Positions 21,986 through 34,151 of a stretch of 64,000 nucleotides of DNA are shown one piece after another. Both the position numbers and the translations under genes were made by a program. Source of the DNA: Ulvibacter litoralis (GTDB taxonomy: Bacteria > Bacteroidota > Bacteroidia > Flavobacteriales > Flavobacteriaceae); the NCBI RefSeq assembly GCF_900102055.1, contig NZ_FNBA01000001.1, forward strand, positions 124,001 to 188,000, read 5' to 3'. The notes beneath the pieces were generated by a model. The model had not been told where the DNA came from, did not search any database, and was given only the letters and a program-made list of their open reading frames with translations. Position 1 is the first letter of the stretch, and every line of letters starts with the position of its first letter.

Positions 21986-23212
21986 TTATACTAATTGCTT
22001 TAATGCAATCTCAAAAGCGGTACTACTAATGTTCGTTTTAGAACTATTATTGTTAAATGTATTCTGAATTGCATTTTTAATCGTGATAGATGTATCATTA
22101 AAAATAGCTTCATCTGTCATTTGCACTTTACGCTCCATAAAGTATGCAAAAACTCTAGCCATTCCGCAATTACTAATAAAATCTGGAATTAAACTTACAC
22201 GCTCATCGGTGTATTCCATAATAGATCCGAAGAAAATTTCTTTATCTGCAAAAGGTACATTCGCACCACAGCTAATTACTTCCAATCCAGTATCGATCAT
22301 AGAAGAAATTTGTTCTTTTGTAATCAATCTAGAAGCGGCACAAGGTGCAAAAATTTCACATTCTAGCGTCCATATTTTTTCGTTGATCTCTTCAAAAGAA
22401 ATCATATTATCTGCTTTTAGCGTGTTTCCGTCTTTATTTAGGAACATCTGCTTTATCTCATCGAAAGAGAAACCGTCTTTGTTTATAACTCCGCCAGCTC
22501 TGTCTATAATTCCGACAATCTTTGCTCCCATTTGCGCTAAATAATACGCTGCGGCAGCCCCAACATTTCCAAAACCTTGGACAATGGCACGTTTCCCTTT
22601 AATATCGCCACCATAAATATCGTAATAGTGATGCACAGCTTCCGCCACACCATATCCAGTAATCATGTCGGCAACCGTATATTTTCTTGTCACGTCTGGA
22701 GAATAGGCTGTATTTTCTAATACTTTTATCACACCATGACGCAATTGCCCAATGCGGTTAATTTTATCAGCTTCCGTAGGAGAAAAGTGTCCATTAAACA
22801 CTCCTTCTTGTGGATGCCAAACCCCACTTTGCTCTGTAATTGGGATTACTTCGTGAATTTCATCTACATTTAAATCACCACCTGTTCCGTAATACGACTT
22901 TAATAACGGTGAAACTGCTTTGTACCAACGCTCTAAAACACCTTTTTTACGAGGATCTTTTGGATTAAAATTGATACCCGATTTTGCACCACCAATTGCT
23001 GGTCCAGAAACTGTAAATTTCACTTCCATTGTTTTGGCTAGCGACAATACCTCGTTCATATCCAAACCTTCACGCATACGCGTTCCTCCACCAGCAGCAC
23101 CGCCGCGAAGAGAATTTATAACTGTCCACCCTTCGGCTTCAGTTTCTGGATCATTCCAATGAAAAACAATTTCAGGAGTTTTATTTTCGTACTTGCTAAG
23201 TAATTCTTTCAT
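21986..23212 (-). CDS. Glu/Leu/Phe/Val dehydrogenase
   Basis: This NAD(P)-dependent oxidative deaminase of 408 residues has the amino-acid dehydrogenase signature: GGAAGGGTRM near residue 35, catalytic-type Lys in GPAIGGAKSGINFNP near 75, GTGGDLNVDE near 118, and the Rossmann motif VQGFGNVGAAAAYYLAQMGAKIVG near 210-235. The exact substrate (glutamate or branched-chain amino acid) is not certain; the length and the GGAKSGI motif are shared by both. A -7 box lies 47 nt upstream. It heads the run toward nhaD. Confidence 0.9.
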   Translation of the reverse strand: MKELLSKYENKTPEIVFHWNDPETEAEGWTVINSLRGGAAGGGTRMREGLDMNEVLSLAKTMEVKFTVSGPAIGGAKSGINFNPKDPRKKGVLERWYKAVSPLLKSYYGTGGDLNVDEIHEVIPITEQSGVWHPQEGVFNGHFSPTEADKINRIGQLRHGVIKVLENTAYSPDVTRKYTVADMITGYGVAEAVHHYYDIYGGDIKGKRAIVQGFGNVGAAAAYYLAQMGAKIVGIIDRAGGVINKDGFSFDEIKQMFLNKDGNTLKADNMISFEEINEKIWTLECEIFAPCAASRLITKEQISSMIDTGLEVISCGANVPFADKEIFFGSIMEYTDERVSLIPDFISNCGMARVFAYFMERKVQMTDEAIFNDTSITIKNAIQNTFNNNSSKTNISSTAFEIALKQLV

Positions 23213-23258
23213 TAATAAGGTGAGTTAATTTTCATCTGTTTTTTTAGATGTGCATAGG

Positions 23259-23266
23259 CAAATATA
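23259..23266 (-). promoter_or_regulatory. -7 promoter box for the dehydrogenase-nhaD run
   Basis: Minus strand TATATTTG, an exact match to TAnnTTTG, 47 nt before the dehydrogenase ATG. No TTG is found at the proper distance, so this is a partial match. Confidence 0.4.
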
Positions 23267-23305
23267 AAAAATTGACGAAGGCTTACGATTGATTTTATGT
23301 AATTT

Positions 23306-24373
23306 TTATGCAAAGAAAATCATTCCGCCAGAATGATCCTTAGAAGCACCCGTTACACTTGCCAAACAATTTACTTCATTTCGCAATTTCAACACCCCTA
23401 ACAGACCGAATATCAAGGCTTCTTTAAATTCTATCATTTTCGCATCTGGCACAATTAACGCTACATCTTTAGAACGTTTTATCATTTCAAGTAAATACCG
23501 ATTGTAAGCGCCTCCACCTGTAACAAGTACTTTCGATCCTTTGTTAAATTGTCGTGCAATTACCGCAGCAATATGATCGGTAACTGTGCGCAATTTATAG
23601 GCATCACCATAGCGCTTATTATTCAATATGGGCAAAAACTCATTCTGAACCCACTCCAATCCTAAAGATTTCGGTGGCAACAGTTTGTAATACGGTATTT
23701 CTCGCAGTGCTGAAGACAAAGACAAACTAAATTTTCCATGTCGCGCCATTTCTCCACCATCATCGTACGGTTTTCCATAAGCCTCAGCCAACGGGTTTAG
23801 CACAATATTTACAGGACAAATATCGTACGCTATACGTTCGCCGTTTCGTTCAAAAGAGCAATTTGCAAAACCTCCCAAATTCAAACAGTAATCGTATTCT
23901 TTAAAAAGCAACGCATCGCCAATAGGCACCAACGGAGCTCCTTGTCCGCCAAGCGCAACATCTTCCACCCTAAAATCGCACACTACTGTTTGTTGAATCA
24001 GTTTTGCCAGTTTCGGTAGATTTCCAATTTGCAATGTAATTCCGTTGGCGGGCTGGTGTAGAATAGTATGTCCGTGACTGCAAACAGCATCTAGGTTTTT
24101 AATTGTATGTTTCTTAACAAACGTAAGAATCACTTCGGAAAGGTACTCGGTATATTCTAAGTTTAAGGTCTCGAGGGCAGCTTCAGAGTGCGACACCGCC
24201 TCTTGCAATTTTTGTTTCCAAGTGGAAGGATACGCAACCGTTTCCGAAGCAAAAAGCTCAAAACTCCAGGCATTCGTTTCAGAAAATGTAAAAACTATCT
24301 CACATAAATCAATCCCATCAAGAGAAGTTCCACTCATAACTCCTACCACATGATAGCTGTTTTTTTTCATCAT
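23306..24373 (-). CDS. anmK: Anhydro-N-acetylmuramic acid kinase
   Basis: AnmK phosphorylates and opens 1,6-anhydro-MurNAc to MurNAc-6-phosphate during cell-wall recycling. The 355-residue protein starts with the family signature VVGVMSGTSLDGIDLCE. It has CSHGHTILHQP near residue 105, DFRVEDVALGGQGAPLVPIGD near 135-155, NLGGFANCSF near 168, and VLVTGGGAYNRYL near 293, the actin-like ATPase core. There is no murQ beside it. It is divergent from the acyl-CoA dehydrogenase gene and about 90 nt upstream of the dehydrogenase, so it may be a separate unit. Confidence 0.93.
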   Translation of the reverse strand: MMKKNSYHVVGVMSGTSLDGIDLCEIVFTFSETNAWSFELFASETVAYPSTWKQKLQEAVSHSEAALETLNLEYTEYLSEVILTFVKKHTIKNLDAVCSHGHTILHQPANGITLQIGNLPKLAKLIQQTVVCDFRVEDVALGGQGAPLVPIGDALLFKEYDYCLNLGGFANCSFERNGERIAYDICPVNIVLNPLAEAYGKPYDDGGEMARHGKFSLSLSSALREIPYYKLLPPKSLGLEWVQNEFLPILNNKRYGDAYKLRTVTDHIAAVIARQFNKGSKVLVTGGGAYNRYLLEMIKRSKDVALIVPDAKMIEFKEALIFGLLGVLKLRNEVNCLASVTGASKDHSGGMIFFA

Positions 24374-24484
24374 TTGAATTACATTTAATGCATAAAAATA
24401 GCATTCAAATTGAATACTTTTGAAAATTAATCCATCTTTTTCAAAAAAGACTATTAAAAAATCAACAATCGTAGCCTTAGCCTG

Positions 24485-24515
24485 TTTGAGATTTGATTAA
24501 TAAACGGTATCTTTG
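24485..24515 (+). promoter_or_regulatory. Promoter for the acyl-CoA dehydrogenase
   Basis: TTTG (24485-24488), 19 nt, TATCTTTG (24508-24515) followed by C. This is a strong consensus promoter 36 nt before the ATG. Confidence 0.72.
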
Positions 24516-24551
24516 CGCCACTTTTCACACAAAATATAATTACGTATACCT

Positions 24552-25694
24552 ATGGATTTTAGTCTTTCCGAAGAACATATAATGATACGCGATGCAGCTC
24601 GCGATTTTGCAAGAACCGAATTATTACCTGGTGTAATAGAACGTGATAACGCTCAGAAATTCCCTACAGAGCAAGTTAAAAAAATGGGCGAACTAGGATT
24701 CCTAGGAATGATGGTTGACCCAAAATACGGCGGTGGCGGTATGGATACGATTTCCTACGCGATTGTGGTTGAAGAATTAAGTAAAGTAGATGCTTCATGT
24801 TCAGTTATCGTATCGGTAAACAACTCTTTAGTTTGTTACGGTTTAGAGACCTACGGAACAGAAGATCAAAAACAAAAATACTTAACCAAATTAGCAACAG
24901 GACAATCAATTGGAGCCTTTTGCTTGAGTGAGCCAGAAGCAGGAAGTGATGCAACTTCACAAAAAACTACGGCTATCGACAAAGGCGATCACTACATTCT
25001 TAACGGAACTAAAAACTGGATTACCAATGGTGGTACTGCAGATTTTTACTTGGTAATCGCACAAACAGATAAAGAAAAAAAACACAAAGGAATTAACGCT
25101 TTTATTGTTGAAAAAGGCTGGGAAGGTTTCGAAATTGGACCTAAAGAGGACAAGTTAGGAATTCGTGGTAGCGACACCCATTCTCTTATCTTTAACGACG
25201 TAAAAGTGCCTAAAGAAAATAGAATTGGTGAAGACGGATTCGGATTCAAATTTGCCATGAAAACATTGGCAGGTGGACGTATCGGAATCGCAGCGCAAGC
25301 TCTTGGAATTGCAGGAGGTGCGTACGATTTAGCTCGCGAATATTCTAAAGTTCGTAAAGCTTTCGGAACCGAAATTTGCAACCATCAAGCCATTGCTTTT
25401 AAATTGGCAGACATGCACACAAGCATCGAAGCAGCCCGTCATTTAGTAATGAAAGCTGCCTGGGACAAAGACCAAGGCAACGACTACACCATGAGTGGTG
25501 CCATGGCAAAACTATACGCTTCGCAAGTTGCGATGGACGTTTCAGTAGAAGCAGTTCAAGTACACGGTGGAAACGGTTTTGTAAAAGAATACCATGTTGA
25601 ACGTATGATGCGTGACGCGAAAATTACACAGATTTATGAAGGAACTTCAGAGATTCAAAAAATCGTAATCTCCAGAGGATTATTAAAAGACTAA
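24552..25694 (+). CDS. Acyl-CoA dehydrogenase
   Basis: This FAD enzyme introduces a trans-2 double bond in acyl-CoA, probably short-chain (butyryl/isovaleryl type). The 380-residue protein has the classic signatures: GAFCLSEPEAGSDATSQKTTA near residue 125, the FAD segment KNWITNGGTADFYLVIAQT, and QVHGGNGFVKEYHVERMMRDAKITQIYEGTSEIQ, whose Glu in YEGTSEI is the catalytic base. It is alone on its transcript, with a strong promoter and a good terminator, and no electron-transfer flavoprotein gene is nearby. Confidence 0.95.
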   Translation: MDFSLSEEHIMIRDAARDFARTELLPGVIERDNAQKFPTEQVKKMGELGFLGMMVDPKYGGGGMDTISYAIVVEELSKVDASCSVIVSVNNSLVCYGLETYGTEDQKQKYLTKLATGQSIGAFCLSEPEAGSDATSQKTTAIDKGDHYILNGTKNWITNGGTADFYLVIAQTDKEKKHKGINAFIVEKGWEGFEIGPKEDKLGIRGSDTHSLIFNDVKVPKENRIGEDGFGFKFAMKTLAGGRIGIAAQALGIAGGAYDLAREYSKVRKAFGTEICNHQAIAFKLADMHTSIEAARHLVMKAAWDKDQGNDYTMSGAMAKLYASQVAMDVSVEAVQVHGGNGFVKEYHVERMMRDAKITQIYEGTSEIQKIVISRGLLKD

Positions 25695-26027: not shown

Positions 26028-27368
26028 ATGTCTGACGATTTTGACTTATTAGAAACCGATTCCTCTTCCTCAAAACAAGAAAAAGTAGATGTAAACTGGG
26101 GTAAAACTGTGGACCAAATGAAGTCCAAACTCGCTCAAGAAGACGATCCAGAAATACGCCAAAAAATACTTAATGCGACCCTAGACGATGTGGTAGGCAT
26201 GGCAGAAAAAGACAGAAGCTCTTTACTAGATGCTATTAAAGACCTTACCGATTACCAAGACGAAGTCGGAATCATTTTCGAAAAATTTTCTACGCTGAAT
26301 CCGTCCGAACAAAAGGTTATCGACGATGCTCAAAAAGCATTGGAACGTGCCAAAATAGAATTGGAAGATGCTCAAAACGTAAAAGACAGCTGGTGGAACA
26401 ACCTTTGGGGACGCAAAGCCAAAATAAAGAACAAAACTTCCGAATTAGCCGCTGCGCAAAAAGTGAGAGATGCTGCCGATATGAAAGCCAAAGAAATGTT
26501 TCAGCAACGTATCGAAACGGCAGACGTACAAACATTATTAAACGAACTTTCGTATAAAAGCCAGGCAGCTGTTACCCGTTTAAAAAATCGTGAGGTTGAA
26601 ATCAAAGAAGTAGAAGACAAACTTCAAGTTGCCATTGTAGAAGCGAGTAACAACCACACCAAAGCACTTGAAAAAAAGAAAGAGACGGAAGACAAACTGG
26701 AAGAGCAATACGCATTGCTAAAACAAGCCAGACAAGAACTAGACGAAATTGCCGACAAACAATCGTCTGCCTATTCTGAAGCGATAGGAAAAATAACCAC
26801 TATCGAACAGAAAGTAGAAGAACTAGAAGGTCTTAAAAACGCCTACACTACACTTGCGGCGAGTAAAGATAGTTTTGTACACAAACACAACTTAACGATT
26901 AAAGTACTTACATCGCTACGTAGTAACTTACAAACACACCGCGCCAAACTAAAAAGTGATACCGATGAGCGTCTTAAATATTACGAAGGATACGTAGTAG
27001 CGTTAAAAGCTAGAACCGATCAAGAATTTGCCGCTATTTTAGAACACTTGGGTGTAAAAACCGATGAGCATATTGGACAAACCTTAGCCGCAATGCATAC
27101 TGCAAGTGCCAAAGCACGTCAGGAAATGATGGACAATATTCCGGTACATGAAAAAGTAATGCAAGGAGTTTATGGAAGTTATGCCGAATCGTTACAAGAA
27201 ATACGCGAGAAAGATGCCGACATTCAGAAGAACTTTGCAAACCGCTACGGGATTGATATGAAAGAGATTTTTGAAGAGTATTACGCAAGCGAAAAAGGAA
27301 CGCCTGCAAACGACAATCCGACGCCCGAAAAACCAAAACCAGCAGCCGAAGACGATTTGTTAGGATAA
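26028..27368 (+). CDS. Long coiled-coil protein of the AAA+ cluster, function unknown
   Basis: The 446-residue protein is almost entirely charged helix and long coiled coil (about residues 90-300), with Lys/Glu/Gln-rich heptads and no membrane helix or signal peptide. It should be cytoplasmic. A tryptophan patch (DSWWNNLWGRK, near residue 122) breaks the helical region. The C-terminal third (DSFVHKHNLTIKVLTSLRSNL...) is less repetitive and loosely recalls TelA-type proteins; this is an impression only. Both ends carry the same short acidic-dileucine motif: DDFDLLE at residues 3-9 and EDDLLG as the very last residues, separated from the core by flexible linkers. It heads a plus-strand gene cluster with an AAA+ ATPase and is likely the scaffold or substrate of that ATPase. 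Confidence 0.75.
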   Translation: MSDDFDLLETDSSSSKQEKVDVNWGKTVDQMKSKLAQEDDPEIRQKILNATLDDVVGMAEKDRSSLLDAIKDLTDYQDEVGIIFEKFSTLNPSEQKVIDDAQKALERAKIELEDAQNVKDSWWNNLWGRKAKIKNKTSELAAAQKVRDAADMKAKEMFQQRIETADVQTLLNELSYKSQAAVTRLKNREVEIKEVEDKLQVAIVEASNNHTKALEKKKETEDKLEEQYALLKQARQELDEIADKQSSAYSEAIGKITTIEQKVEELEGLKNAYTTLAASKDSFVHKHNLTIKVLTSLRSNLQTHRAKLKSDTDERLKYYEGYVVALKARTDQEFAAILEHLGVKTDEHIGQTLAAMHTASAKARQEMMDNIPVHEKVMQGVYGSYAESLQEIREKDADIQKNFANRYGIDMKEIFEEYYASEKGTPANDNPTPEKPKPAAEDDLLG

Positions 27369-27460
27369 TCCAAACACACTGTGTAATAATTGAGCGTTTT
27401 AAATACCTTCAATAACACGGTACACCAAACTGAAATCATTCGAAATCTGTACACATTAAA

Positions 27461-28519
27461 ATGTCAATAAACCAAATTGTAACACCACTCGATAGTGCTG
27501 TTCTTGAAACCAAAGAACAGTACTCGGTGTACTTCAAGATAATAAATCATGCGTTTTCTGAGTTGGTAAGCAAAATAGCGCAACACAACATTTGTTCTAC
27601 AATCGAAACCACTTTCATGGAGCAATACTGTGAGTTGCTTTTGTATTCGCTAGAAGCTTTTAGAGTCAAATATTTGTTCGACAGTGAAGAGAAAATGAAG
27701 GTAGATTTAACCGAATCTGGTTTTCCAAATTACTTGGAGTTTCGTTATCTTTTAAACGATTTAGAACTTAAAAACGAACACATCAGTAAGCTTCCGAAGG
27801 TAGAAGAACTAAAGGCCGAATTTTTAGAAACCTTACTGAAGAACAAGGAAGAAATTTCGGAACGGAAATTACACCAAGCAGCTTCTATTGTGTATTACAA
27901 TTCGGTAGAACAGAAGTTTATTTTTAAACGTTTTGTACAAGGAAAAATCATTGCGAATGTCGGTACTGCAGCTTCCGAAGGAGAATATATGGTTAGTTGG
28001 TCGTTTTACGACGTAACCTATAACCGCCCATTTATTTGTTTTATGTATTTCGATTTATACAAAACGAGTATTTCAGAATACACACAACAGATTTACGAAG
28101 TTTTAGAAACCGTTGCCGATAGAGACATGTCAATGGATATGATGGCGTATGCTATTGACAAAAAATTACCGAAAGTCTGGCCTAAGAAACTTAAAAAAGT
28201 GGACATGGGTCCTTTTCATAATGTTTTTGCGAAAGATGAATTAGAGATTACGCACGTCATTTTAAAAGGGATAATTGAGAAAAACTTAGATCTTTCGGCG
28301 TTTGCTTTGTCGCTAACCATAAAAACAACCAACAGCACCGGGAATTTTTCCGAAGGAAATATTTTCAACAAGCAATACTTACAAGTTTGGGAAAACTCCA
28401 AACCTCAAAAATATGTATTTACGTCGCATAGAGTGATGCAAACCCTTTACGACCAAATACCCGACACCTTACACGCTTTAACCCAAGACCCAATCGAAAT
28501 TTCGGCTTTAACTTTATAA
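27461..28519 (+). CDS. Conserved-looking cytoplasmic protein of the AAA+ cluster, function unknown
   Basis: I do not recognise this 352-residue protein. It has no signal peptide or clear membrane helix. The first 150 residues look helical; the middle (GEYMVSWSFYDVTYNRPFICFMYFDLY) is aromatic and beta-rich; a second half follows with HVILKGIIEKNLDLSAFALSL. It lies 92 nt after the coiled-coil gene and stops 2 nt before the AAA+ ATPase start, so it is certainly translated together with the ATPase. That tight coupling suggests a fixed-stoichiometry partner or adaptor. The upstream gap holds a segment related to the repeat at 32311-32445. Confidence 0.7.
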   Translation: MSINQIVTPLDSAVLETKEQYSVYFKIINHAFSELVSKIAQHNICSTIETTFMEQYCELLLYSLEAFRVKYLFDSEEKMKVDLTESGFPNYLEFRYLLNDLELKNEHISKLPKVEELKAEFLETLLKNKEEISERKLHQAASIVYYNSVEQKFIFKRFVQGKIIANVGTAASEGEYMVSWSFYDVTYNRPFICFMYFDLYKTSISEYTQQIYEVLETVADRDMSMDMMAYAIDKKLPKVWPKKLKKVDMGPFHNVFAKDELEITHVILKGIIEKNLDLSAFALSLTIKTTNSTGNFSEGNIFNKQYLQVWENSKPQKYVFTSHRVMQTLYDQIPDTLHALTQDPIEISALTL

Positions 28520-28521
28520 CT

Positions 28522-30483
28522 ATGGAACACAACAGTACATTTCCTATTAAATTATCTGAACTTGAAGCCCTTCGAGAGGAAGCCACTTCGTATTTAAAAG
28601 GCGTACAATGGGAACAGGGAAATAAAGCTAGAAGTCGCGATAAAGACCAAAAGGACGATTCTATTTTACTGTACCTTTCGAAAGCAAATAATGGCGGAAG
28701 CACTGAAGTGACTTCGGTCGCTAAAACCATTGCAAGTGTTAAGAAACGCTTGTTGCCCGATTCGGTCGCCATTCCGTTGCACCTTAACAGAGCCTTGTTT
28801 GCCCTGCAGGAAGGGTTAACTATGGGGATTTGGCTAAAAGACAGTTATTACGATGCTTCCGGACTCTCAAGTTTAAACGAACGCAGAGGAAGTTTAGATG
28901 CAGCGCAACGCCGTGAGTTTGATTCGAAAATGCAAACGGCTACGGCTTTTATGCTCTTCGGAATTGCCTACAGAACTTTATTCGATTTAAAACAAGTGGC
29001 TTCAGACGACCTTAGTGTGATGAAAAATAAAATCTCATCCATTCCTGAAGTGTCTCTTTTATCACCATTGAAAGGAATTTCATGCTTGTTATTCTATTAC
29101 GATGGTTTCTTAAATCACAACGAGATTATTACTTCAGACAAAGACGTAGTCGATTTTACCGTGGTCTTTTTTGAAAGTATTATTTCTGAAATTCAGTTGC
29201 GCATCAATTCCTTAGAATACACTGAAGTCATTACCGACCGAACCTATAAACTTGAAAAAAGTGAATTCGCTGTTTCAGGCTGGGAAAACACATTTGAAGG
29301 CACTGCGAAAAGTGTAGAATTCAACAAAATTGAATTTGAAGAAATTGTAGGGAACCGCGATGCTAAACATTTTGCGCGAAGACTAACCGAGCGAATGTTG
29401 AGCTATGATTTTGAAGCACAAAAAAATCCTTTTCAAGAATTGGGTGGTTTTATGCCCGTTTTTATGGGCTACGGAATTCCAGGAACAGGAAAAAGTATGC
29501 TCATCGCTGCCATTGCCACTCGCTTGAAAAAACATTGTGAAGCTTTAGACATTCCGTTTTTGTTTCATCCCATGCCAGATACGCTTATCTCAACCTTTCA
29601 AGGAGGTTCGGCCGAAAAAATGGTGCAATGGATGAAGCCCTTACAAGATCCTAACAAACTAATTTTCGCGCCTATTGACGATGCGGAAAACAATTTACAA
29701 GAACGAACTACACAAGGAGTCTCGGCTGGAGTTAAAGAAGTGATCGGTGTGTTTCTACGATATACGGAAGGCGCCTATGCGATTAACTACGGAAACAGCT
29801 CGATTGGTTTGTTTACGAACCTTCCTGAAATGCTTGATAAGGCAGTAATCTCAAGAGTGCAAGGACGTTTTAAAATTGACGGAGCTCGTACCCTACCCGA
29901 TTTTATAGATCAGGATTATTTATGGTGGCGAAAACTAGAAAAAACAATGCCCGATTTCGTGAATATGAAGAATCCCGAAAAATACGACTTCCTAAGCGAG
30001 CAAGGGTTGGCTAAAAACTTGGGCGAAATCATGAACGTGAGCGACAAACCTTCCGAAGCAAAAATTTTAGAAATTTATGAGCAAACGGAAGCAAATCATT
30101 CAAATACCGAACATTTGTTTTTTGCCGAATTGTATAAAAACGTTCAGAAATCATTTCCGTTTTTCTCTTCTCGAGACATTCGGAACATACAAAGTGCTGT
30201 TTCACTTCGCTTAACTGATTTTGATCTTCCTCAAGCTTGGTTTGACGATGCTAGTTTGTATTTCAAAAAAGACTACGACACCAAACTTTCGATGCTTCAA
30301 GACTTGATGAAGCAAAACATGAAAGGCTTGAACTTTTCAGACATTCGCCGTCAGGAAGTGATTCGCTATTTAGACAACGTAGCTACCATTGCAGACACCG
30401 ACTTTAAACGTCAGGTAGAAGGCAGAATTCACGATATGAATGTGCAAGTAGAAGCCAGACGTCAATTTGAAGAAAAAGAGTAA
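28522..30483 (+). CDS. AAA+ ATPase of the coiled-coil cluster
   Basis: The 653-residue protein has a 300-residue N-terminal region of unknown fold, then one classical AAA module. Walker A is GIPGTGKS at 318-325. A pore-loop-like STFQGGSAEK (Phe359 in the place of the Vps4/FtsH aromatic) follows. Walker B is unusual, LIFAPIDDAEN, with Asp387 where the catalytic Glu normally sits (Glu389 is nearby). Sensor 1 Asn433 lies in LFTNLPEMLD, and arginine-finger candidates are Arg445 and Arg449 (ISRVQGRF). A helical C-terminal domain of about 200 residues ends in a charged coil. There are no membrane helices, so it probably acts in the cytoplasm as a hexameric remodeller of a neighbour-encoded protein. 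The substrate is unknown. Confidence 0.85.
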   Translation: MEHNSTFPIKLSELEALREEATSYLKGVQWEQGNKARSRDKDQKDDSILLYLSKANNGGSTEVTSVAKTIASVKKRLLPDSVAIPLHLNRALFALQEGLTMGIWLKDSYYDASGLSSLNERRGSLDAAQRREFDSKMQTATAFMLFGIAYRTLFDLKQVASDDLSVMKNKISSIPEVSLLSPLKGISCLLFYYDGFLNHNEIITSDKDVVDFTVVFFESIISEIQLRINSLEYTEVITDRTYKLEKSEFAVSGWENTFEGTAKSVEFNKIEFEEIVGNRDAKHFARRLTERMLSYDFEAQKNPFQELGGFMPVFMGYGIPGTGKSMLIAAIATRLKKHCEALDIPFLFHPMPDTLISTFQGGSAEKMVQWMKPLQDPNKLIFAPIDDAENNLQERTTQGVSAGVKEVIGVFLRYTEGAYAINYGNSSIGLFTNLPEMLDKAVISRVQGRFKIDGARTLPDFIDQDYLWWRKLEKTMPDFVNMKNPEKYDFLSEQGLAKNLGEIMNVSDKPSEAKILEIYEQTEANHSNTEHLFFAELYKNVQKSFPFFSSRDIRNIQSAVSLRLTDFDLPQAWFDDASLYFKKDYDTKLSMLQDLMKQNMKGLNFSDIRRQEVIRYLDNVATIADTDFKRQVEGRIHDMNVQVEARRQFEEKE

Positions 30484-30524
30484 AACGATAAAAATTGAGA
30501 TTCCTGTGTTCGCAGGAAATGAAT

Positions 30525-31769
30525 ATGGATAAATTAAAAGCAGCAGGATTATACGGTGGCGCCTTGGTTCCACTTTCAGGATCGTTGGCAAAACGCTATA
30601 ACGGCTGTCTCGAAATGATGGGAATTACACCTACTGCCCTATCGCACTTTTCTATTGATGCGATGGGCTGGAGCCCTGAAATTGCTGAAGAGAAAAAGGA
30701 CAATTATTACCTAAATATAGGAGAGGCCAACGTAAATGCAATTATTATTTCGCCAGCTCAAAACAACAAACCTGTGCACATGCCGTCGCATAGTTTTGAT
30801 CGTGATTTGCTGAATGCAGTATTTGTCGCTTACGAAAAACCCATTCGAGATATTACTAAAGATTCCGCTATTTGTGTGCAGTTAGACCAGCATATTGACA
30901 CCTTTTATGAAGCTTTCGATTTGTTGCGCTACGGAAAGATTACCGTTAATTTTAAAATTTTAAACGATCTTGACAAAAAACAAGAAGCCCAATTTGAACT
31001 CATTAAAAAGTTTCAAGAAGGGAATGCTTTTTTAGATCGTGAAGTACATAAAGAACTACTAGCATCGTCGCGTGCTTATGGCGATCTTCGGAATCGAAAA
31101 CTAGACCTTGAACCTTTTTCATTAGAGGTGAGTTCTTTTTACACAAGAGCTTTTGGCGGTGTTTTTATTCTGAAAGATTTTTTGAAGCCCATCATGATTT
31201 TTGAATCGAAAGAAACCTTCAACGAAGCGATAAAAAATGACACGTTTGATGTACTTCTGTTTCATATTGAACACGACGAATTGTTAGAATCGTTAAAGAG
31301 TCATTTAATTTTAGAAAGCAATTTGAAGAAGTCGGTAAAAACCCCGAGTTACGAACGAATTAAGAAGCATCTGTTCTCTCGCCATGTTAAAAGTCCGCAG
31401 CAACCCTTCAAAGAGATCTTCGACAGTCATTTTCTGTTTCTTAAGTATTTGAATGAATTGGATATTGCTGTTCAGAAAAAAATAACAGGCGTCGAATTGT
31501 ATTTTCAGAAATTAATTATCGACAAATCGTTACAACAAGAAGATTATATCGACAAACCTTTTTACAAAGCATTGCACCAACCGCATTCATCGCTTGAAGA
31601 AGATCAAAAACAACTGATTTGGAAACTAATTTCAACAATAGCGCCGCTAGACCCGGTCTATTTATTTTGGTATAACAAAGCGCAATTTTACAAAAACTAC
31701 GCTTCTTGGGACGAAACCTATCAAGATTGGGTAATAGATTGTATCTTAGAAGAGAACAAAAAACAATAA
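30525..31769 (+). CDS. Unknown protein of the AAA+ cluster (DUF6638-like)
   Basis: The 414-residue protein starts MDKLKAAGLYGGALVPLSGSLAKRYN. I chose the ATG at 30525 because an AGGA sits 7 nt before it; the longer frame starts at a TTG and includes non-homologous-looking residues. From memory this resembles the DUF6638 family found beside this type of ATPase in Bacteroidota; I cannot verify the number. The sequence is globular, mixed alpha/beta, with helical C-terminal repeats rich in Leu/Phe, and no signal or membrane helix. It lies 41 nt after the ATPase and 3 nt before a membrane protein gene, so it belongs to the same transcript. It may link the ATPase to the membrane component. Confidence 0.7.
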   Translation: MDKLKAAGLYGGALVPLSGSLAKRYNGCLEMMGITPTALSHFSIDAMGWSPEIAEEKKDNYYLNIGEANVNAIIISPAQNNKPVHMPSHSFDRDLLNAVFVAYEKPIRDITKDSAICVQLDQHIDTFYEAFDLLRYGKITVNFKILNDLDKKQEAQFELIKKFQEGNAFLDREVHKELLASSRAYGDLRNRKLDLEPFSLEVSSFYTRAFGGVFILKDFLKPIMIFESKETFNEAIKNDTFDVLLFHIEHDELLESLKSHLILESNLKKSVKTPSYERIKKHLFSRHVKSPQQPFKEIFDSHFLFLKYLNELDIAVQKKITGVELYFQKLIIDKSLQQEDYIDKPFYKALHQPHSSLEEDQKQLIWKLISTIAPLDPVYLFWYNKAQFYKNYASWDETYQDWVIDCILEENKKQ

Positions 31770-31772
31770 CCT

Positions 31773-32297
31773 ATGACACTGGAAATCATCATTTTTATAC
31801 TCGCCATTCTCTTCGGAATTGTTTTTTACTGGAGAGAAGCAAAAAACAATGCGTTGTATCGTTTTTGCAACAAAGTAACGCACTCGAAAGAGCTTCAGAT
31901 GAAACTTGAGAACAGAAAAGGATTTATTCACCAACAACCGTTCTTATTGCGATTGGTTTGGGTTACGTTGTTCTTTTTAGTGATTGCAATTGTACTTACA
32001 ATCATTATTCCGTTTACGGTGAATTACCTTCAGTACTTTATTGCAGCCATAGTAGGAACGCTTATCGGAACCTATATTGCTTCTTTATTTTTGTTCGCGA
32101 AGGAAAAAACGAATAAAGAAAATCTTGAAAAAACCTTTCAGAAAGGAAAAGATATCATCGATGATTTTTCTGAAGATGTACGTGAAAAATTTGAAGACGA
32201 AGTACAACCGGAAACCACTGAAATTCCGAAGAAAGAACCTGAAGCGCCTCAGAAATCGGCACGAGAACGATTAAAGGACAAAGGGATGATTAAGTAA
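31773..32297 (+). CDS. Small membrane protein of the AAA+ cluster
   Basis: The 174-residue protein has an N-terminal helix (about 3-19), a basic loop of about 40 residues, two adjacent helices (about 58-83 and 85-109), and a charged cytoplasmic tail rich in Glu/Lys/Pro ending SARERLKDKGMIK. There is no known domain. It begins 3 nt after the preceding gene. The tail could recruit the soluble cluster proteins to the inner membrane; this is inference from layout only. Confidence 0.7.
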   Translation: MTLEIIIFILAILFGIVFYWREAKNNALYRFCNKVTHSKELQMKLENRKGFIHQQPFLLRLVWVTLFFLVIAIVLTIIIPFTVNYLQYFIAAIVGTLIGTYIASLFLFAKEKTNKENLEKTFQKGKDIIDDFSEDVREKFEDEVQPETTEIPKKEPEAPQKSARERLKDKGMIK

Positions 32298-32310
32298 CGC
32301 ATTCAATTAA

Positions 32311-32445
32311 CGGTACTATATCATAACACAGTACGTCAACCTGAACTTGTTTCAGGTTCCCTCTTCAGGTATTTAAAACCTGCTTGATGTGACGCCGAAG
32401 CAAATTCGGAATGACGTGAAAATGATAGTATGTGACATAGTACGG
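32311..32445. repeat. MITE-like palindromic intergenic element
   Basis: A 135-bp element with nested inverted repeats. Outer arms are GTACTAT (32313-32319) with ATAGTAC (32437-32443); middle arms are ACGTCA (32333-32338) with TGACGT (32412-32417). Three inner hairpins are AACCTGAA/TTCAGGTT, CAGGT/ACCTG and CCGAA/TTCGG. 'CCTGAACTTGTTTCAGG' is a word I remember from dispersed elements in flavobacterial genomes. It sits between two genes of the AAA+ cluster and may act as a terminator or processing site. The segment at 27412-27440 resembles its left arm. Confidence 0.55.
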
Positions 32446-32480
32446 ATATACATTAGTGTATTCTTTTAAAACAACGAAAG

Positions 32481-34151
32481 ATGATAAAAAAATATTGGCA
32501 AAAAGGAGGAAAACAAAAGCGCATCGTTGTACTAAGTGCGTTTGTATTGGTATTGTTGCTTTTCTTTTTACGAGACAACTACCAGCCTGCTTTATTGTTT
32601 GTTCGTAAGTATGTGTTCCTTATTTTAATGGGCGGACTCTTTTTAGGATTTACACTTTCAAAATTTAGAAGTGCGTTGACGGCTGGAAAACGAGTTTTAA
32701 TCCTCATCGGAATTGTTGTCTTTTTTGGCGCGGGTTGGTTTTTAGGTTGGAAAATGGAATTGTACCAATTTATGCAAACCTATAATGTGTTTAACAACTT
32801 AAATTTGGTTGAGATTAGCGAATTGCCACTCACCCAAAACGAACGCATTCAGCCCTACAATAATATTGTAACCATGGCCTACGAGTCGATTGGTGAAACG
32901 CAAGAAGTTTCGGCACCGCAATTAGTGCGTGTAGATAGTACGAACCAATGGACCATGGCGGTACAACCTGCTGAAGAATATATGTGGCAACGTATGAACG
33001 ACAATACCGAAGAGTTGTTTTCGGTTCCGAGTACGTCGCCGTTTCCTCGTTTTTCTGATAAAAGTAGAATTCCGATTACGTTTGCCATTGGAGAATCGTT
33101 AGCGTTTAGTAGAAACACCTACAATGCCGTAGTGCAACGTTTTAATTTCTTTCAACTGTTTACAATGGAGCCGAGCGAGGTTTTCTATATGAAAGACGAC
33201 ACCGGCAAGTGGGTTCAGGTAGTGAGTTTAATTAAATGGAAAGGGTTTTTCTTTCCGTATCCTTCGTATGGAGGTGTGATGGTTATAGAGCCTGGCGAAC
33301 ATGATTTTGGAGATTATATGGAACGTATTACCATTGGAAAAGGAACCTATATCTCGCCAAAAGAAACACAAAACCATCCTTTTTTAACGCGTCAAAATAC
33401 GCTGAACGAGAAAGTATCGCGTTTGCAAGCACAATCGCTTCAGTTTTTAGGTGGATTTACAGATCCGTTGCCTTGGAATATGGAAACAGCCGTGAAAATT
33501 CCAGATTTGGCCGACGATCAGAATCAGCAGCCTTTTGTTACCGATTTCAATTTTGAAGGCATGAATACCGATGCGTTTAGCGGACTCTACCACTGGTTTG
33601 GTTTGGAACCTATTGGCGAAGAACGCACCAGTTTGGCATTTAGCGTACTCGTTCCTGCTGACGGAACGGATGCGTTGTACTACTACAATCACGCAGCCAA
33701 AAAAGAAGGACTTGCGGGTGTTTCGGCAATGCCATTAAAAGTGATTGAATCTAAAAAGGAATACGATTGGTCGGTAAACAAACCTGTTGAATTTAGACCT
33801 TTTGTTAAGTATATAGCGGGAAGAAAACGTTTATTTGTACTTAGTACGATTGCCGCAAAACGAGAAGGAAACAAAAAATTTGACGGTGCTGCAACACCCG
33901 ATTTGGCACTAATCGATTTGGAATACAGAGATGTTATTTGGGTAGATGCCAAGCATCCTTCACAATGGGAAACGACTATTTTAAATCAGTTAGGCGAAAC
34001 TTGGAAGGCTTCAGAAGGACTTACCGATAAAGAATTGTATCCTAATAAGATTGAAATTGATGTAGTGCCCATTCAGCAGCTTGACAGCCTTAACATTGAT
34101 ACACTTTCCGAAGAAAATATTGAAGTGGTAACCGATACCATTTCAAAGTAG
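32481..34151 (+). CDS. Membrane protein with large extracytoplasmic domain, end of the AAA+ cluster
   Basis: The 556-residue protein has three N-terminal membrane helices (about 14-30, 44-59 and 71-90) after a basic head, then about 460 residues that should lie in the periplasm if the first helix enters inside-out. The large domain is rich in aromatic and proline residues (for example FFFPYPSYGGVMVIEPGEHDFG, LQFLGGFTDPLPWNME) and ends in an acidic tail. No known family was recognised. The intervening repeat separates it by 183 nt from the cluster, so co-transcription is likely but not certain. A role as the envelope-side partner of the cluster is inference. Confidence 0.7.
   Translation: MIKKYWQKGGKQKRIVVLSAFVLVLLLFFLRDNYQPALLFVRKYVFLILMGGLFLGFTLSKFRSALTAGKRVLILIGIVVFFGAGWFLGWKMELYQFMQTYNVFNNLNLVEISELPLTQNERIQPYNNIVTMAYESIGETQEVSAPQLVRVDSTNQWTMAVQPAEEYMWQRMNDNTEELFSVPSTSPFPRFSDKSRIPITFAIGESLAFSRNTYNAVVQRFNFFQLFTMEPSEVFYMKDDTGKWVQVVSLIKWKGFFFPYPSYGGVMVIEPGEHDFGDYMERITIGKGTYISPKETQNHPFLTRQNTLNEKVSRLQAQSLQFLGGFTDPLPWNMETAVKIPDLADDQNQQPFVTDFNFEGMNTDAFSGLYHWFGLEPIGEERTSLAFSVLVPADGTDALYYYNHAAKKEGLAGVSAMPLKVIESKKEYDWSVNKPVEFRPFVKYIAGRKRLFVLSTIAAKREGNKKFDGAATPDLALIDLEYRDVIWVDAKHPSQWETTILNQLGETWKASEGLTDKELYPNKIEIDVVPIQQLDSLNIDTLSEENIEVVTDTISK

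Follow-up and report, generated by a model that had tools for sequence, protein, structure and literature searches.

A six-gene operon built around an AAA+ ATPase and a long coiled-coil protein was analysed in Ulvibacter litoralis, a member of the Flavobacteriaceae with a 3.8-Mb genome. It occupies positions 26028–34151 of the 64,000-nucleotide stretch of DNA examined here, which is referred to as the window (contig NZ_FNBA01000001.1, positions 124,001–188,000). Its genes, lettered A to F in their order on the plus strand, encode the coiled-coil protein (A), a soluble protein of a family without a name (B), the ATPase (C), a DUF6638 protein (D), a small protein with three predicted membrane segments (E) and a larger one with three such segments and a probable periplasmic domain (F). 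These six genes almost certainly constitute one functional unit, whose order is kept across many genera and whose first four members recur as a core in a second phylum. As the first-pass annotation of this DNA had proposed, none of the six resembles a known secretion, phage-defence or metabolic system: judged by sequence comparison, no part of the operon matches a described system, and its function is without description in the literature searched. The preferred reading, to which a probability of about 40% is assigned, is that of an inner-membrane machine in which C would remodel a scaffold made of A; B and D would act as adaptors, and E and F would provide the membrane link and a periplasmic output.

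Gene order and spread in Bacteroidota

The six open reading frames and the five gaps between them (92, 2, 41, 3 and 183 nt, from A–B to E–F) are exactly as originally annotated, given a start of D at the ATG at 30525. The mechanically called frame of D opens at a TTG at 30495; the ATG is favoured because relatives of D are mostly 411–417 amino acids long.

When 84,980 species genomes were scanned with C, 100 relatives were obtained, and 80 loci were fetched, nearly all of them from Flavobacteriaceae. The complete series A-B-C-D-E-F, on a single strand and in the same order, is present in 68 of these 80 loci, which represent many genera. Ten of the other twelve end at a contig edge, as judged by length, and only two (L079 and L083) are truly rearranged. 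The L079 genome has A (83% identity) and F (66%) on other contigs; from the L083 genome, F (61%) was recovered on another contig, and A was looked for and not found. That missing parts turned up elsewhere in both rearranged genomes speaks for a single machine. One further locus (L009, genome G088) had appeared to lack A, B and C; this loss was rejected, since the locus retains all six genes, with C and D separated by an inserted block of ~9 kb. The system is present in single copy. E and F come immediately after C and D, and the genes often touch or overlap.

The ratio of nonsynonymous to synonymous substitution rates (dN/dS) lies between 0.04 and 0.14 where synonymous change is measurable, most dS values being saturated. 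Together with the gene order shared by 68 of the 80 loci across many genera, this indicates conservation far beyond chance. Within Flavobacteriaceae the pairwise distances of the six proteins correlate with one another (r 0.81–0.93), which fits proteins that have been inherited together.

The spread of the operon is wide within one family and thin outside it. C was detected in 86 of 299 sampled Flavobacteriaceae genomes (~29%) and in 71 of 236 genera; in a genome of the same genus as the host (G356), it is 88% identical. In the order-level sample C is confined to this family, and in the class-level sample it occurs in 8 of 295 genomes and 7 of 156 genera. Six of those eight genomes, from four other families of Bacteroidia, carry C at 43–45% identity, and the full six-gene order is found in all six. 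F is 34–39% identical in these other families, and E is likewise present in their full operons. The first-pass annotation had named two findings that would refute it, a gene order not conserved beyond this genome and a clear match of the neighbours to a known system; neither was obtained. Its wording that the operon is conserved in Bacteroidota holds for roughly 29% of Flavobacteriaceae and for scattered members of the class, and is too broad for the phylum.

Several genes have settled within the operon in particular lineages. A NUDIX hydrolase of ~195 amino acids (NudK-like by eye) lies between C and D in a group comprising Winogradskyella, Gelidibacter and Flavivirga (NUDIX-bearing loci L059, L061, L063, L064, L067, L069–L071, L073, L077, L078, L082 and L121). 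In Kordia (L084–L090), 0.9–5.7 kb of variable genes occupy one place, again between C and D, and were named by eye as amidohydrolase, SnoaL-like, signal peptidase I-like and TPR proteins. Small four-helix genes of the 23S rRNA intervening-sequence type and GIY-YIG-like genes, also identified by eye, recur in the gaps of the operon (loci L012, L042, L064, L068, L070, L078, L081; L046, L055, L063).

Upstream of A, a gdh-anmK-acd block is located at 21986–25694 of the window and is common to many relatives. As it does not accompany the operon in all of them, the operon must occupy several chromosomal places. Matches to the Bacteroidota-type promoter consensus in the window were at chance level, with none upstream of A, and scans of the window for sigma-70 promoters and terminators gave results at or below chance.

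A four-gene core in rhizobia and Vibrio

In tblastn searches against plasmid records, second chromosomes included, C was found adjoining D in Sinorhizobium, Shinella, Rhizobium and Vibrio. In the annotated rhizobial and Vibrio records, the gene for an ATP-binding protein is preceded by two genes without names and followed by a DUF6638 gene. Profile comparison by hhalign relates each of the four to its counterpart, with probabilities of 98.4% for A (E 9e-15), 99.8% for B and the second gene (E 4e-28), 100% for C (E 7e-63) and 100% for D (E 1e-41), and the rhizobial and Vibrio partners of D are also DUF6638 proteins by Pfam. Gene B (27461–28519, plus strand, 352 amino acids) encodes a soluble protein with no Pfam match. 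The system is not specific to Bacteroidota, given the presence of the A-B-C-D unit in rhizobia and Vibrio.

The genes that follow the core differ. In Sinorhizobium and Shinella, the slot directly after the DUF6638 gene is taken by a gene of the DUF2333 family (PF10095), whose product has two predicted membrane segments. DUF2333 shows no detectable kinship with F or E (hhalign probability 0.4% and 0.1%), and the idea that E or F might be versions of it was rejected on these values, both below 1%; nor was any DUF2333 match found in 148 Bacteroidota genomes. In two Vibrio records, DUF2333 is encoded elsewhere on the replicon that carries A-B-C-D, unlinked to the operon. F is not present in the searched Vibrio record. 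On the strength of these comparisons, the system is read as a core, A-B-C-D, with an exchangeable membrane part: a membrane partner recurs, and its identity changes.

Three loci outside Bacteroidota deserve separate mention. In Vibrio parahaemolyticus, a full-length DUF2333 gene (L123, NZ_CP062152.1:493395-494342) lies on the same replicon as the A-B-C-D operon and is unlinked to it. On pSymB of Sinorhizobium meliloti Ak57, a DUF559 endonuclease gene and the IS4-family element ISRm16 are situated between C and D (L091:11410-13155). In a related copy (L096), the C–D spacing is 762 bp, which leaves no room for ISRm16.

The ATPase, the coiled coil and the membrane partners

Among the six proteins, only C (AAA) and D (DUF6638) exceed a Pfam cut-off, A, B, E and F having no family above it; NCBIfam and PADLOC searches added only weak AAA-domain matches. 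Gene C (28522–30483, plus strand) encodes an ATPase of 653 amino acids of the classical AAA+ type, which matches PF00004 with an E value of 3.5e-9 and 37.6 bits against a cut-off of 21.2. Its closest PDB sequences are the AAA domains of VCP-like proteins and Vps4 (E 3e-4 to 8e-4), and that of FtsH is also among them. Motif conservation was counted in a set of 96 homologues that spans both phyla. The Walker A residues of GYGIPGTGKS (G318, P320, G321, T322, G323 and K324), sensor 1 (N433) and the arginine-finger residues (R445 and R449) are kept in at least 98% of them, a pattern shared with the classical clade. C differs from VCP-like proteins, Vps4 and FtsH in its N-terminal part of ~265 residues, which belongs to no known family, in the lack of a protease domain, and in its Walker B. 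The MoxR–vWA chaperone system does not apply either, given that C matches PF00004 and no vWA match was obtained among the six proteins.

The non-standard Walker B (FAPIDDAEN), with aspartate in place of glutamate, was noted at the outset and is confirmed here: Asp387 stands at the position of the catalytic glutamate, IDD is found in 96/96 homologues, and not one of them has the classical hhhhDE motif with its glutamate. To judge from this alignment, the aspartate is a fixed, family-wide feature and no local oddity. The assignment to the AAA fold stands, because the Pfam cut-off is passed despite the change.

Gene A (26028–27368, plus strand) encodes the coiled-coil protein of 446 amino acids, which is predicted to be cytoplasmic. 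Its structural model contains a long antiparallel helical hairpin (residues ~167–240 and 247–327), with a predicted local distance difference test score (pLDDT) of ~70–90. Coiled coils usually drift fast. Of the six proteins, A evolves most slowly, at 0.75 times the distance of C and well under B, D and E, which is consistent with self-assembly or with many contacts. Both of its ends are conserved: an N-terminal motif DFDLL[ED] (here DFDLLE) occurs in 69 of 74 sequences, and a C-terminal motif DDLLx (here DDLLG), placed behind a low-confidence linker, in 70 of 74. At six distant loci from Bacteroidia, A keeps FDLLD and a related D-L-hydrophobic end.

Gene E (31773–32297, plus strand) encodes a protein of 174 amino acids, for which hydropathy predicts three membrane segments and a basic cytoplasmic loop. 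E is the least conserved of the six. Its C-terminal tail is variable and charged, and ends in a conserved peptide, SARERLKDKGMIK. From their sequences, this tail end and the end motifs of A may be docking peptides, of the kind bound by AAA+ rings or their adaptors.

Gene F (32481–34151, plus strand) specifies 556 amino acids, with three N-terminal membrane segments predicted by hydropathy and a large C-terminal domain. Basic residues precede the first segment and lie between the second and the third, so that by the positive-inside rule the C-terminal domain of ~450 residues is probably periplasmic, as had been suggested before. In Flavobacteriaceae, 207 of the 556 columns are at least 97% conserved.

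Gene D (30525–31769, plus strand, 414 amino acids from its ATG) had been called DUF6638-like, and its membership is clear (PF20343, E 1.1e-29, 104.1 bits against a cut-off of 27). The family has no described function, and the literature search found no paper mentioning DUF6638; in the present operon its member has an AAA+ gene as a constant neighbour. The model of D is confident (pLDDT 90.4, predicted template modelling score 0.85). Among the structural matches listed for it, the best Foldseek E values are 0.2 (PDB) and 0.26 (viral models), and none exceeds Z 5. D may thus have an unseen fold, of which the absence of matches is no proof. No convincing match came from profile searches of the PDB with A, B, D and F as queries; the single match of D below E 0.01, to the Ribophorin 1 superfamily (E 0.002), concerns a fold that does not appear in its structural-search lists.

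Proposed mechanism and alternatives

The preferred inner-membrane machine is based on the gene order, the co-inheritance of the six proteins, the core common to two phyla, the motifs of the ATPase, the predicted topology, and the slow evolution and end motifs of A. In this machine, C would assemble into a ring of the classical AAA+ type that, powered by ATP, would load, disassemble or turn over A, which C may recognise by its ends. A would serve as a scaffold, either self-assembling or with several partners, lying on the cytoplasmic side of the inner membrane, and B and D would act as adaptors joining ATPase, scaffold and membrane. E and F would anchor the assembly, whose state F might relay to the periplasm by way of its large domain. 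Maintenance or remodelling of the cell envelope would be the likely purpose. Of the trans-envelope or membrane machine first suggested, one part is upheld: an AAA+ operon that is conserved and undescribed, with a coiled coil resembling a scaffold and with membrane partners; the trans-envelope aspect is conjectural, with nothing pointing to outer-membrane or secretion parts.

Several observations weigh against this machine. Judged from the sequence motif, the Walker B aspartate could entail slow or absent hydrolysis. In NSF, the D2 domain has aspartate at the position of the Walker B glutamate and hydrolyses poorly, and other AAA+ proteins with an altered Walker B stay active. For C, the aspartate is no proof of lost ATPase activity, because the protein retains its Walker A, sensor 1 and arginine finger. 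A was modelled with moderate quality overall (pLDDT 62) and with poorly placed flanking helices, and its fold matches are no better than those of any long helical hairpin. In the A proteins of rhizobia and Vibrio, the two end motifs are not readily apparent. Finally, in the phylum sample DUF6638 was detected in 4 of 296 genomes; most Bacteroidota do without the system, which therefore does not answer a universal need of the envelope.

The soberest alternative is a chaperone for the assembly of an envelope complex, in which C, with B and D, would load or mature E and F, and A would be a stalk or spacer and not a substrate. The placing of E and F immediately behind C and D argues for it, as do the strong conservation of F and the presence in rhizobia of another membrane protein in the E/F slot. 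It accords poorly with A being the first and most conserved gene while E is the least conserved, and with the searched Vibrio record, where F is missing and DUF2333 is unlinked. On balance this explanation is rather unlikely.

The most exciting alternative is a bacterial counterpart of ESCRT-III and Vps4, in which A would polymerise on the membrane via its hairpin and C would pull it apart, the membrane being bent, cut or repaired in the process. Vps4/SKD1 is indeed among the solved AAA domains closest to C, and the long hairpin of A is followed by shorter helices. The fold matches of A include Vipp1 (Z 10.6) and an Asgard ESCRT-III filament (Z 10.0), but these values fall within the range common to helical proteins, tied with chemoreceptors, Smc and dynein stalks, and were obtained with a model of moderate quality. 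ESCRT-III proteins carry MIT-interacting motifs, which the end motifs of A recall. The MIT domain itself, which forms the N-terminus of Vps4, gave no Pfam match in C up to an E value of 1, a divergent helical domain being possible there, and ~165 residues precede the hairpin of A, a part that ESCRT-III proteins do not have.

A published survey describes operons in which PspA/Snf7 proteins are combined with classical AAA+ ATPases (PMC11237479), and the PspA/Vipp1/Snf7 operons (PMC11237479, PMC8281802) resemble the present one in that an AAA+ gene adjoins a helical coiled coil and membrane proteins. They differ in that A matches neither family: the PspA_IM30 and Snf7 Pfam models found no match in any of 46 A proteins at E 0.1. 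In addition, the consulted portion of PMC11237479 holds no counterpart of B, D, E or F. A direct counterpart of ESCRT-III and Vps4 is therefore distinctly doubtful. The same low standing is given to an undescribed, transferable membrane-remodelling engine, in which A would be a new membrane-associated filament, unrelated in sequence to known ESCRT-III and dismantled by an AAA+ ATPase with an aspartate in its Walker B, with B and D as adaptors of unseen folds and with membrane proteins that differ by phylum.

A role in anti-phage defence might be read from the weak PADLOC match of C to IetA (E 5.6e-5) and from the patchy presence of the operon within Flavobacteriaceae. The match is confined to the AAA domain, however, and the IetAS arrangement, in which IetA is paired with the protease IetS, is not reproduced, as there is no IetS-like partner and no protease among the six genes. 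The C profile found no match in viral contigs and no relative in phage records. This absence from phages, the flanking gdh-anmK-acd genes that many relatives share around a single-copy system, and the in-step evolution of the six proteins make defence highly improbable.

Least credible of all is the reading of the operon as a stress module akin to TelA/Ter tellurite resistance, in which A would be a relative of TelA: TelA is a soluble helical protein of similar size in an operon of likewise unclear biochemistry, but the profile comparison of A with TelA gave an hhalign probability of 0.2%, no member of A matches PF05816 in Pfam, no TerD-like genes occur here, and most of the Bacteroidota TelA loci examined have TerD-like neighbours, with neither C nor D beside them. 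The kinship that length and helical pattern had suggested was accordingly rejected. A weak TelA match in one Bacteroidota genome (L101) falls in an MlaD-like protein. At three loci (L103, L105 and L106), TelA has TerD-like neighbours, and the next gene encodes an unnamed protein of ~320 amino acids; B was considered as a relative of the gene after TelA in Ter clusters, and this was rejected upon a negative profile comparison.

AAA+ ATPases working on membrane-bound coiled-coil scaffolds are central in eukaryotes and archaea and little known in bacteria. The operon of U. litoralis offers a well-delimited module, with a fixed order, a four-gene core in two phyla and a membrane part that is specific to each lineage. 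The system is shared more widely than was first supposed, and in the Flavobacteriaceae, a large and predominantly marine family, roughly 30% of the genomes sampled carry it. It raises the biochemical question of how an AAA+ ring might work with an invariant aspartate in place of the catalytic glutamate, and it provides a handle for finding the function of DUF6638 and of several protein families that have as yet no name.

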